A stretch of DNA of 59,805 nt from Hutsoniella sourekii ATCC 700629. GTDB lineage: Bacteria; Bacillota; Bacilli; Lactobacillales; Aerococcaceae. Below, one piece after another: positions 51,731-59,805 of this stretch (position 1 is the stretch's first letter; every line of letters starts with the position of its first letter). Under the pieces are notes generated by a model, which was given only the letters and a program-made list of their open reading frames with translations, had not been told where the DNA came from and made no database searches. Made by a program: the position numbers and the translations under genes. Location of the stretch: assembly GCF_000518205.1 (NCBI RefSeq), contig NZ_JADD01000016.1, positions 1 through 59,805 on the forward strand, read 5' to 3'.

Positions 51731-52105
51731 CTAATGACTAACTTTTTCTTTCAAAAGATCAAAATCATCTTGACTGGTTGCGATACCCACAAAGAAATCA
51801 GGTGCTTCTTGAGTCGAGCAATTCAGATCTATATCGTTTAGCCTTAAGAAGGTTGTCAAGGCTAACCAAGCAGTCCGCTTGTTTCCATTATGGGAAGGGT
51901 GCCTTTTTATAATATTCATCGCTAATATTGCTGCTTTGTTGTAAACACTTGGATATAGTTATACCACAAATATTTCTTGCTTGGGTTGTTCAACAGCCAT
52001 TAATAAAGCAGGTTTGTCCTTAACACCATTTATCTCTTGCGGCGAATATTTTTCAATGAGTCTTTGGTTGATCAGCTTTAGAGTTTCAACATCTAAATAA
52101 GTCAT
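51731..52105 (-). pseudogene. Doc/Fic-type (death-on-curing) toxin, one nonsense codon
   Basis: The frame reads MTYLDVETLKLINQRLIEKYSPQE..GVKDKPALLMAVEQPKQEIF and then LYPSVYNKAAILAMNIIKRHPSHNGNKRTAWLALTTFLRLN, with the Fic-like HP..NGNKRTA motif. A single TAA at 51959-51961 splits an otherwise complete 124-codon gene just before LYPS. The start overlaps the antitoxin stop (ATGA). Doc toxins phosphorylate EF-Tu. Truncation before the active site should abolish toxicity. Confidence 0.82.
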
Positions 52106-52395
52106 AGATCTACCAGTTTCTTAAATATCTCATCATCCTCATTCAAAATATCTTCTATAACCTTAGAAACTCGACTCTTATATTCTTCAGAGCTATCTTC
52201 CAAGACCCCTATCCCCTCCTTAATCGGAGTGGCCGTATGGGTATTTAATTGGAAGGGGATCCCCTTTTCGCGGACAACAGCAGCCAGAAAGACATTGACG
52301 CCTGTAGACATATTCATACCTAAGTCTTCAAAGATTGCCTGAGCTTTTTCTTTTATTTCCTTATCGACACGTACGTTAATATTAGTTGATGACGT
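52102..52395 (-). pseudogene. RelB/DinJ family antitoxin, start codon lost
   Basis: NINVRVDKEIKEKAQAIFEDLGMNMSTGVNVFLAAVVREKGIPFQL is the ribbon-helix-helix N-terminus of RelB/DinJ, continuing to a normal end. A GGAGGG site is present, but the codon at the expected start is ACG, with no ATG, GTG or TTG in frame before residue 27. A start there would omit the DNA-binding strand. It overlaps the Doc pseudogene by 4 bases. Confidence 0.75.
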
Positions 52396-57331: not shown

Positions 57332-57471
57332 TGAAGAATAAATAACCATACAAAAATAATCTCTAAAAATCTTTATCAAGTTATTAAAATGCTTGTTTCA
57401 TAAAATCTTCAATTCAATGAACAATTATGTTAGCCTTATTGTAGTGATATTTATTGATTAAGGGGAAGCAA

Positions 57472-59130
57472 ATGAACGAATTAATTATTGAACATAAATC
57501 TTTTACCCATGAGGATCTAACTCAGATTGACCAAGTCTTTTTGAATAACTATCCGATTGTTTATATGCTCTATAATCCATCAAAATCCGGTCAAAATAAA
57601 AGAAAAACTGCTTATATTGGTCAAACCGTCAATGTCAATCAAAGAATGAAAAATCATCTGGAATCAGGAAAAAGAAAAAATTTAACCGATACCCTATTAA
57701 TCGGTCATGAAAAATTTAATCAATCTGCCACTTATAACATCGAGACTAATTTAATCAACTACTTAATTGCGGATGAAGAATACAAACTCCAAAACGTTAG
57801 TCAAACGCGTCAAAAATATATGCATGGTTACTATAAGAAAGCTTTATATGACCAGGAAATATTTAGTCAAATTTGGCAGGTTCTTCTGGACAACCAGTTG
57901 GTTAAGCACTCCCTATCAGAAATCGAGAACAAGGATATATTCAAGATATCTCCTTATAAGGCCCTCTCCTCGGAACAATTAGCGCTAAAAGAAGAGATTA
58001 TTGACTATTGTACTCATAACATTGATAAAAATAATCAGCATATCTTTATTATTGAAGGAGAAGCTGGAACGGGTAAAAGTGTTCTCTTATCATCCTTGTT
58101 CAACACTATACAAGATTTCAGCAAGGATGCTAGTTCTCCCCTTTACAAAACAGATAACTACCTCTTAGTTAATCACACAGAAATGCAGAAAACCTACCAC
58201 AGCATTGCTGAAGCCTTACCTAACTTAACTAAAAGCCGTTTTGAAAAGCCGACTAGTTTTATCAATAAATATACTGGTAGACAAGCCGATATTGTTCTCG
58301 TAGATGAAGGCCATTTATTACTTTCTACTCAGGATAAATTCAATAATTTCTCTTATGACAATCAGTTAGAAGAAATTATCAAGCGAGCAAAAGTAACGAT
58401 TTTTATTTATGACAGCAAACAATTTTTGAAATTCAAAAGTTTCTGGGATGATGATCAACTCACAAGAATTGTGAGCAATTACGACACAGAAAGAAAACAA
58501 TTGACACGCCAATTTCGAATGCAGGCGCCTATTGAAGTTGAAGAGTGGATAGATAACTTTGTTAGAAAGCAAGTAACTCCCTTACCGAAAAATGCTAAAT
58601 CGAAATCCTTTGAGTTAAAAATCATGGCTAGCCCTGATGAACTTAAAGACTATATTCGGGAAGCGAACAATATAGCTGGCCTTGCTCGTATAGTCTCTAC
58701 CTTTGACTACTTACATAAGAAGGATGGAGGTATCTACTACGTCGATCCGGAAGGATTAAATTTACCATGGAACACCACGGGAAGCCCTAAGACATGGGCT
58801 GAGCGTCCAGAAACAATTCATGAAGTTGGTTCAATCTATACCGTCCAAGGATTCGATTTAAACTATGTTGGATTAGTGTTAGGGCCTTCAATTGATTTTG
58901 ATGATGAGCGTAATGAATTAATTATTGACACCTCTCTCTATAAGGATACCGGTGCTTTTACTAGAACGAATCGTTTCAATGACCAAGAAACAATTGAACA
59001 TACGAAAGAGCAAATCATCTTAAATTCCATAAATGTCTTGATGAAACGGGGCGTTCATGGTCTAGCTCTATATGCTGTTAATCCAAAACTCCGGCAGAAA
59101 CTCTTAAGCTTACAGGAAAGGAATATATAA
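57472..59130 (+). CDS. GIY-YIG nuclease fused to DUF2075 helicase-like ATPase
   Basis: Residues about 25-110 form a GIY-YIG domain: IVYMLYNPS (GIY strand), TAYIGQTVNVNQRMKNHL (YIG, with Arg and His) and IETNLINY with the catalytic Glu. From about 185 comes a DUF2075/SF1-like ATPase: Walker A IIEGEAGTGKSVLLSSLF, Walker B DIVLVDEGHLLL, RQFRMQAP (motif IV-like) and VGSIYTVQGFDLNYVGLVLG near the end. DUF2075 is related to the helicase half of Schlafen proteins. The ATG follows AGGGGAAG. One base separates it from a MazG-like gene, so they form an operon. A nucleic-acid-targeting defence role is inferred. Confidence 0.85.
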   Translation: MNELIIEHKSFTHEDLTQIDQVFLNNYPIVYMLYNPSKSGQNKRKTAYIGQTVNVNQRMKNHLESGKRKNLTDTLLIGHEKFNQSATYNIETNLINYLIADEEYKLQNVSQTRQKYMHGYYKKALYDQEIFSQIWQVLLDNQLVKHSLSEIENKDIFKISPYKALSSEQLALKEEIIDYCTHNIDKNNQHIFIIEGEAGTGKSVLLSSLFNTIQDFSKDASSPLYKTDNYLLVNHTEMQKTYHSIAEALPNLTKSRFEKPTSFINKYTGRQADIVLVDEGHLLLSTQDKFNNFSYDNQLEEIIKRAKVTIFIYDSKQFLKFKSFWDDDQLTRIVSNYDTERKQLTRQFRMQAPIEVEEWIDNFVRKQVTPLPKNAKSKSFELKIMASPDELKDYIREANNIAGLARIVSTFDYLHKKDGGIYYVDPEGLNLPWNTTGSPKTWAERPETIHEVGSIYTVQGFDLNYVGLVLGPSIDFDDERNELIIDTSLYKDTGAFTRTNRFNDQETIEHTKEQIILNSINVLMKRGVHGLALYAVNPKLRQKLLSLQERNI

Positions 59131-59131
59131 T

Positions 59132-59461
59132 ATGAATCTTATGGAAAAAGTTGACCAATTCCGAGATGAACGAGACTGGCGCCAATTTCATAACGAAAAG
59201 GACCTAGCCCTTTCTATCTCACTAGAAGCAGCCGAATTATTAGAAATCTTTCAATGGAAGACTTCACAGGAAGCCATTGATTCAGACCTAGATCATTTAA
59301 AAGAAGAATTAGCCGATGTAATGATCTACTCACTTATGTTAGCTTCTAACTTGAATTTAGATCTCGAAGAAATTGTAATCGATAAATTAGCCAAAAACGC
59401 TGAAAAATACCCGGTTGATAAAGCTAAGGGGAATAAGAAAAAATATGATCATCTGAATTAG
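59132..59461 (+). CDS. MazG-like nucleotide pyrophosphohydrolase
   Basis: All-alpha NTP pyrophosphohydrolase of 109 residues. SLEAAELLEIFQW supplies the ExxE and KEELADVMIYSLMLA the ExxD magnesium ligands; the C-terminus KNAEKYPVDKAKGNKKKYDHL is typical of the small MazG-like/RS21-C6 type. Such enzymes hydrolyse dNTPs or modified nucleotides. Its gene begins directly after the DUF2075 stop, so it probably works with it. Confidence 0.9.
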   Translation: MNLMEKVDQFRDERDWRQFHNEKDLALSISLEAAELLEIFQWKTSQEAIDSDLDHLKEELADVMIYSLMLASNLNLDLEEIVIDKLAKNAEKYPVDKAKGNKKKYDHLN

Positions 59462-59596: not shown

Positions 59597-59805
59597 ATGA
59601 GCTACAAACATCTTACCATAGAAGAACGATTAAAAATAGAAGTCCTGCATAAAGAAGGCTATAAAGTTAGCCGAATAGCTGATATTATTGGCTGCCATCG
59701 CTCAACGATTTATCGAGAGCTGAATCGTTGTCACTCAGAAGCCTATCAAGCTAGATCAGCGCAAAAACATGCGAATAAAAAGAAGGCTTCAAAAGGTCGT
59801 CGTCC
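59597..59805 (+). CDS. IS30-family transposase, N-terminal part (cut by window edge)
   Basis: MSYKHLTIEERLKIEVLHKEGYKVSRIADIIGCHRSTIYRELNR is the IS30 N-terminal helix-turn-helix region; the frame runs open to the end of the window. GGAGG precedes the start. It pairs in type with the C-terminal fragment at the opposite edge. Confidence 0.92.
   Translation, partial: MSYKHLTIEERLKIEVLHKEGYKVSRIADIIGCHRSTIYRELNRCHSEAYQARSAQKHANKKKASKGRR

Follow-up and report, generated by a model that had tools for sequence, protein, structure and literature searches.

A GIY-YIG nuclease/Schlafen group 3 helicase and an adjoining DCTPP1-like pyrophosphohydrolase as a candidate accessory defence couplet of Bacillota

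SauUSI, described as a major obstacle to the transfer of genes in Staphylococcus aureus, cleaves DNA containing 5-methylcytosine (5mC) or 5-hydroxymethylcytosine (5hmC) (title and passages of PMC7913695); neither "MutT" nor "Nudix" occurs in the main text of that paper. Human DCTPP1 hydrolyzes dCTP itself (passages of PMC4491611), and enzymes of its type are described as sanitizers of the nucleotide pool (passages of PMC10742078). The helicase family PF09848 appears as a defence Pfam of the abortive-infection (Abi) type in a published list (excerpt of PMC10121019), a GIY-YIG nuclease is mentioned among the defence systems of Escherichia coli (excerpt of PMC9519451), and Schlafen RNases are discussed in an excerpt of PMC12839542. 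Here we analyze two genes at the end of contig NZ_JADD01000016.1 of Hutsoniella sourekii ATCC 700629, a stretch of 59,805 nucleotides (the window, which is the entire contig, C13 in our numbering): gene A (57472 to 59130, plus strand, 552 residues), encoding a GIY-YIG nuclease fused to a Schlafen group 3 helicase of superfamily 1 (SF1), and gene B (59132 to 59461, plus strand, 109 residues), encoding a MazG-like nucleotide pyrophosphohydrolase related to DCTPP1/RS21-C6.

The pair resembles the SauUSI-type gene with its Nudix gene (PADLOC mREase_IV plus PDC-S07), an occasional neighbour of A, in uniting a nuclease-helicase fusion with a small, overlapping nucleotide pyrophosphohydrolase. The components differ, since SauUSI-type proteins combine a PLD nuclease, a superfamily 2 (SF2) helicase and an SRA reader with a partner of the Nudix fold, whereas A has a GIY-YIG domain, an SF1 helicase and no known reader, and B is all-alpha; moreover, avoidance of genomes that have C5-cytosine methylases is seen for SauUSI-type genes and not for A. 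With other SLFN-g3 helicase (DUF2075) proteins A shares the helicase family, to which it adds the N-terminal GIY-YIG domain and the linked B. Bacterial Schlafen RNases have the Schlafen name and the defence theme in common with A, but A carries the group 3 helicase and no RNase core; a role of such RNases in defence against phages is reported by Taboada et al. (bioRxiv 2025). B retains the fold and seven of eight pocket residues of the DCTPP1/RS21-C6 dCTP pyrophosphatases (pocket as given in passages of PMC4491611), from which it differs in having no evident equivalent of His38 and in its linkage to a nuclease-helicase, dCTP being its predicted substrate. The best PADLOC match of A, candidate PDC-S14, is alike in the GIY-YIG region (E 1.3e-8, residues 26 to 120), but this 301-residue model does not cover the helicase. 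We take COG3410 and cd10439 to catalogue the GIY-YIG and DUF2075 fusion, and we know of no function, partner or defence link given for either. No description of the A-B pair appeared in the open-licence PMC listings, and the original prediction, made from the sequence, likewise knew of no experimentally defined system with exactly this pair; the couplet is probably an undescribed defence module.

We read A and B as an accessory defence couplet, a reading to which we give a probability slightly under one half (about 0.47). The most likely mechanism makes A a nuclease powered by ATP and directed against invading DNA, with B as an auxiliary that removes dCTP-type nucleotides from the pool, and the couplet would serve in defence. 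A would load onto incoming or abnormal DNA, translocate along it at the expense of ATP and cut it with its GIY-YIG domain. B would hydrolyze dCTP-type nucleotides, most likely C5-altered dCTP arising as foreign DNA is made or degraded, and would in this way keep such nucleotides out of host DNA or deny them to the invader. Its part may thus be to shield the host from A, to starve the invader or to tidy up once DNA has been broken down. A partner that is helpful and non-essential would fit the existence of A loci without B.

Linkage of the two genes was examined in a species-level scan (one genome per species), from which the best-scoring 80 loci of 462 relatives of A, 79 of them in Bacillota, were retained, so that the sample is biased to close relatives. 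Counting by hand from a table of all open reading frames (ORFs) of each locus placed a B-type gene directly beside A and on the same strand at 60 of the 80 loci, downstream at 52 (often with an overlap of a few bases) and upstream at 8, and within about 5 kb of A at 3 more; at the other 17, none was found in the fetched stretch. In an order-level sample, 40 loci were fetched, namely every one of the 18 close full-length A genes and 22 of those that are more distant, and B was adjacent on the same strand at 28 and divergent at 1; the two samples overlap by about 10 genomes and their counts are not summed. B-type genes are by far the commonest neighbours of A (88 loci, 72 at position +1, about 10 genomes being counted twice), followed by ABC ATPases at scattered positions (37 loci). 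No B-type gene lay beside any of 12 same-family helicases lacking the GIY-YIG domain, within fetched flanks of up to 1.5 kb. With adjacency at 60 of 80 loci (best of 462) against 0 of 12, a chance pairing was rejected.

Seen from the other side, 148 genomes contain 81 B-type genes, of which 27 have A no more than 500 bp away, and many of the remainder stand in contexts that look like housekeeping by eye. In the B tree, linked and unlinked sequences (75 and 37, respectively) interleave, which forces nine changes or more, and Abiotrophia has a linked B whose sister is an unlinked one of that genus. Distances among A proteins correlate with those among their B proteins (r 0.535; maximum of 0.196 over 999 permutations), and the order with B upstream requires three changes on the A tree. 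Thus, B has been recruited anew beside A several times. An association that is kept, lost and re-made argues for a functional tie, and the failure to find B at 17 of the 80 loci, together with its repeated recruitment, makes it an auxiliary partner rather than an obligatory half. The two-gene defence module originally proposed is partly supported, in its linkage and in the enrichment in defence models reported below.

Depletion of deoxynucleoside triphosphates (dNTPs) is a known defence principle, and the couplet could in theory act by abortive infection, A being both sensor and switch and B destroying dCTP until phage replication halts. Hydrolysis of dCTP by human DCTPP1 (passages of PMC4491611) would suit this scheme, but A persists at the 17 of 80 loci where B was not found, and B homologues occur alone in many genomes, which argues against B as a toxic effector. 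We consider this explanation improbable.

Gene A starts with ATG at 57472 and its stop codon occupies 59128 to 59130; an alternative TTG start at 57454 would add six residues. A sequence resembling a ribosome-binding site (RBS), AAGGGG, lies upstream at 57460 to 57465, and no promoter-like match was found on the plus strand from 57200 to A. Pfam assigns residues 29 to 112 (57556 to 57807) to GIY-YIG (PF01541, 25.3 bits, above the cut-off of 22.6), with motif residues Y31, Y48, G50, R58, H62 and E91, and residues 190 to 536 (58039 to 59079) to SLFN-g3_helicase (PF09848, formerly DUF2075, 307 bits). The Walker A motif GEAGTGKS spans residues 196 to 203 (58057 to 58080) and the Walker B pair is Asp278-Glu279 (58303 to 58308). 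In an alignment of 76 homologues, Y31, Y48, G50 and R58 are identical in all 75 rows that have a residue there, and H62, E91, G199, G201, K202, D278, E279, Q317, Q347 and R349 in all 76; G196 is kept in 75, position 203 is occupied by Ser or Thr, and Asn stands at position 108 in just 57. Since there is essentially no variation in the GIY-YIG residues or in the helicase motifs, we expect A to be enzymatically active. The fusion with intact catalytic residues and Walker motifs, and the Schlafen type of its helicase, had both been predicted and are borne out.

The AlphaFold2 model of A (pLDDT 91.9, pTM 0.89) begins with a strand-strand-helix-strand-helix arrangement, the order found in GIY-YIG cores, followed by the helicase. 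Foldseek matched the helicase to UPF1, Dna2, SLFN11 (E 8e-8) and SLFN14, and VIA-align to DSH9, HelD, UvrD and SLFN11 (Z 16.6) and, at a lower score, to a chain of the Gabija AB complex (Z 13.1). The VIA-align rows mostly cover residues 109 to 549 and the fold search was filled by helicases, so that the GIY-YIG part was barely probed by fold. A sequence search with residues 21 to 120 found no GIY-YIG entry among solved structures, and the full protein had no solved homologue by sequence except two weak ORC1 matches (E 0.047). The likeness to SLFN11, SLFN14 and UPF1 raises the question of whether A acts on RNA, as eukaryotic Schlafens do, its GIY-YIG domain being structural or an RNA nuclease. 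The helicase fold also matches UvrD, Dda and Dna2, however, and no Schlafen RNase core is present among the 19 Pfam families matching A up to E 1. To our knowledge, moreover, GIY-YIG enzymes are DNA nucleases. Action on RNA is accordingly very improbable.

Gene B begins with ATG at 59132, one base past the stop codon of A, as the original prediction had stated, and an RBS-like AGGAAAGGAA lies immediately ahead of it inside the 3' end of A (59114 to 59123, plus strand), which makes translational coupling of the two genes likely. The designation MazG-like is upheld by Pfam (PF12643, 76 bits) but not in the sense of a generic MazG, as the nearest solved relatives with known substrates are dCTPases. 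With the predicted model (pLDDT 92.8), the first structural match was AF1178 (4qgp), followed by mouse dCTPase with 5-methyl-dCMP (6sqw, TM 0.76), and iMazG and YpjD ranked below 6sqw; 4qgp and dCTPases were also the top solved matches by sequence. The residues E32, E35, E59 and D62 of the ExxE/ExxD metal motif, and likewise W16, W42 and Y66, show no variation among 65 B-type proteins encoded at A loci. In DCTPP1 the pocket includes H38, W47, E63, E66, W73, E95, D98 and Y102 (passages of PMC4491611). The alignment from the sequence search equates W47, E63, E66, W73, E95, D98 and Y102, seven of these eight, with W16, E32, E35, W42, E59, D62 and Y66 of B. Thus, the metal site of an all-alpha pyrophosphohydrolase is intact, and, among solved proteins whose substrate is known, those closest to B are the DCTPP1/RS21-C6 pyrophosphatases of dCTP and 5-methyl-dCTP; B should be read as a DCTPP1-like, predicted dCTP-type pyrophosphatase. 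As a separate observation, two B-type genes without A (L202:6178-6543 and L173:6804-7148, in our numbering of loci) adjoin genes that look restriction-like by eye (McrB-like and HsdR-like); the two L202 genes tested had no NCBIfam match up to E 1e-5, and the B-type one had no PADLOC match.

Neighbouring proteins were compared with PADLOC defence models at E<=1e-15. Downstream of B-less A (17 loci), 403 families were matched in 78 proteins; around A at 60 other loci, two sets gave 127 families in 130 proteins and 129 in 128; and 20 arbitrary regions of A-bearing genomes, all from the source genome's own order, gave 16 in 140. These totals are not gene counts, as the sets were drawn differently, the control comes from one order and the models are redundant. 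The B-less set (A2) took up to seven genes downstream of A, the other two (A3 and A4) up to four downstream and three upstream, and the control the seven central genes, each of at least 110 residues. A3 and A4 include three fragments of broken A genes, A4 is without two long proteins (L107 and L109), and three of the 80 loci (L081, L098 and L139) are in no set. Matches to defence models are thus more frequent around genes of the A family than in the control regions. The original prediction had staked its module on conserved linkage and on defence genes near A, and both were observed.

Many B-less A genes are followed by known defence genes, including those of Gabija, Dnd, retron, SIR2-HerA, Septu and Cas9. 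Among ten neighbours of B-less A picked by eye, eight matched PADLOC at E<=1e-30, namely, DndF, a retron reverse transcriptase (RT_II-A), a HamB-like protein, GajB, PDC-M36A, HerA, PtuA and MzaC, and the two at L141 and L148 had no match at that threshold; the HerA gene adjoins a SIR2-like gene by eye. The position of A beside DndF at one locus (L108) is consistent with the URI (GIY-YIG) nucleases reported at the edges of Dnd loci (passages of PMC10853773). In Planococcus and Planomicrobium (10 loci, all without B), the DNA held in common stops about 30 bp or less from the stop codon of A and unrelated cargo follows, A being the constant first gene ahead of a variable, defence-rich stretch.

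The variable region 3' of A in Planococcus (L219 to L234) also contains two families of repeats of 130 to 170 bp, defined from the seeds L132:14453-14620 and L132:11700-11832. The second family has 40 copies on the contigs with A, all in the orientation of A and 39 of them downstream of it, and 19 further copies on two contigs without A; 21 of the 59 begin 5 to 52 bp past a stop codon on the same strand, and the consensus contains a terminator-like hairpin. The repeats are possibly a cassette-like array. An integron was considered and rejected, the contig with A having no tyrosine recombinase in four of five genomes and one about 138 kb away in the fifth; no attC-like boxes were seen in the repeats by eye.

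A is an accessory gene, patchy within genera and within a species. Some match to A occurs in 93 of 295 genomes of the order sample, with presence and absence mixed within genera, and 13 of 398 genomes of the phylum sample match at E<=1e-40, five of them over most of its length; the source genome (2.07 Mb) has a single copy. Among five Enterococcus raffinosus megaplasmids with common surrounding DNA, two carry A; of those without it, one has both flanks and other cargo, and two match the downstream flank only. In an E. raffinosus carrier, 96 bp separate A from the HNH type IV-like gene that precedes it, and HamB-like and weakly HamA-like genes are nearby. Four of 50,697 phage records match A at no more than 27% identity, two of them over at least 80% of its length; a phage origin is not favoured, as the viral_contigs scan yielded no relative.

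The couplet is flanked by rny and mutS in an Aerococcus metagenome-assembled genome and in three genomes with MutS at 94 to 95% identity, one of them having an extra insert. This position beside mutS/mutL would suit a pair for DNA repair and nucleotide hygiene, in which A handles damaged or stalled DNA, B cleans oxidized or altered dCTP, and proximity to defence genes reflects variable islands; the pool-sanitizing role of DCTPP1-type enzymes (passages of PMC10742078) and the many B homologues found alone in housekeeping-looking contexts (by eye) point the same way. In six relatives of that genus, however, rny is directly beside mutS in two and separated from it by other genes in three (the fetched piece of the sixth stops short of rny); the interval is a variable insertion site. 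The patchiness of A within genera and E. raffinosus, and the strong defence context of B-less A, also speak against repair, which we regard as unlikely. At L035:4086-6647 and related loci in Aerococcus, the rny-mutS interval also contains, ahead of A, an ATPase gene and one further gene; neither had a PADLOC match up to E 1e-6.

The parallel with SauUSI-type pairs came from Enterococcus canintestini, in which A without B stands behind a PADLOC mREase_IV gene (7.8e-270, over nearly the whole 953-position model), itself preceded by a Nudix gene. The solved relative of the mREase_IV protein is 7clg, titled "Putative helicase", which we take to be SauUSI, hence the label SauUSI-type. Of 198 genomes of the order, 75 contain such a gene. 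A Nudix gene was present in the fetched 1.5-kb flanks of all 30 best-scoring loci (L237 to L266), beside or overlapping the SauUSI-type gene on the same strand at 28 and downstream on the opposite strand at 2, its placement being less clean at L238 (interrupted frame) and L257. No Nudix gene was found at 4 HsdR loci (a small control), 12 helicase-only loci, 20 other 15-kb regions or 18 A loci. Among the solved structures nearest to the Nudix protein are a "Mutator mutT protein" (5x1x), MutT2 and a CTP pyrophosphohydrolase (2rrk, presumably E. coli Orf135). Together with the passages of PMC10742078 and PMC7913695, these relatives indicate that nuclease-helicases of two separate lineages are each linked to a small enzyme, the two enzymes being unrelated and of kinds among which removers of modified dCTP are found. 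The SauUSI-type pair also matters separately, since SauUSI is described as a major gene-transfer barrier in S. aureus (passages of PMC7913695). It lies in the A locus at 6 of 110 loci, and A and SauUSI-type genes co-occur slightly above expectation (odds ratio 2.16, p 0.025, uncorrected for phylogeny). On another contig (G000:C3:50576-53413), the source genome carries a SauUSI-type gene whose frame contains a single internal TGA.

A further explanation is type IV-like restriction, in which A cuts 5mC or 5hmC DNA and B removes 5-methyl-dCTP, sparing the host from marking itself. It draws on the likeness of B to the RS21-C6/DCTPP1 5-methyl-dCTP hydrolases, on the Nudix partner at 30 of the 30 best-scoring loci of relatives of SauUSI, which depends on 5mC/5hmC (passages of PMC7913695), on the loci shared with that pair, and on the E. 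raffinosus A gene just past an HNH type IV-like gene. A gene whose product cuts 5mC DNA would be expected to stay out of genomes with C5-cytosine methylases. Co-occurrence with these methylases was compared in the order sample, whose genomes are phylogenetically non-independent, with SauUSI-type genes as the positive control. A methylase is present in 18 of 75 genomes carrying SauUSI-type genes versus 77 of the 123 genomes lacking them (odds ratio 0.19, p 1e-7), and in 32 of 67 genomes with A, a hand-compiled list including some partial or broken genes, versus 116 of 228 others (odds ratio 0.88, p 0.68). Since A, unlike SauUSI-type genes, co-exists with these methylases, its dependence on 5mC is unsupported. 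The source genome itself has three C5-methylase matches, and Pfam reveals no SRA-type reader in A; simple type IV-like restriction is quite improbable.

Several findings weigh against a defence couplet. A shows no avoidance of genomes with C5-cytosine methylases, and the Pfam scan recognized no modified-base reader (SRA-type) in it. Substrate-contacting His38 of DCTPP1 falls outside the B alignment and has no clear counterpart. Neither A nor B has a full-length PADLOC model, and defence enrichment is weaker around A with B than downstream of B-less A, the two samples being differently drawn and the family counts inflated by redundant models. The 17 loci at which B was not found, and the DNA-metabolism neighbourhood of the couplet between rny and mutS in Aerococcus, add to these points.

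It is conceivable, though rather doubtful, that a general rule underlies both pairs, by which nuclease-helicases attacking DNA with altered bases each come with an enzyme that removes the corresponding altered dNTP and thereby keeps the host from putting the target mark into its own DNA. The GIY-YIG/Schlafen helicase with its DCTPP1-like partner and the SauUSI-type protein with its MutT2/Orf135-like Nudix partner would then be convergent examples, and both partner families include known 5-methyl-dCTP hydrolases. Under such a rule, the mark read by A would have to be other than ordinary 5mC, for example, a phage hypermodification. If the defence reading of the couplet is true, a common, undescribed module would be added to the immunity of Gram-positive bacteria, and the question of why DNA-destroying nuclease-helicases pair with nucleotide-pool enzymes would become testable; should the partner shield the host from the nuclease that it carries, the distinction between self and non-self would reach from DNA marks to the dNTP pool.

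In the window, the apparent start of an IS30-like transposase (by eye; 59597 to 59803, plus strand) lies 135 bases after B and runs off the contig end, the ORF being cut because the window is the whole contig. This adjacent mobile element had been offered as a sign of defence but adds no evidence. Farther upstream, short minus-strand ORFs at 51731 to 51919 and 52102 to 52317 have the look, by eye, of a Fic/Doc-type toxin remnant (HPxxxGNKRTA) and a RelB-like antitoxin.

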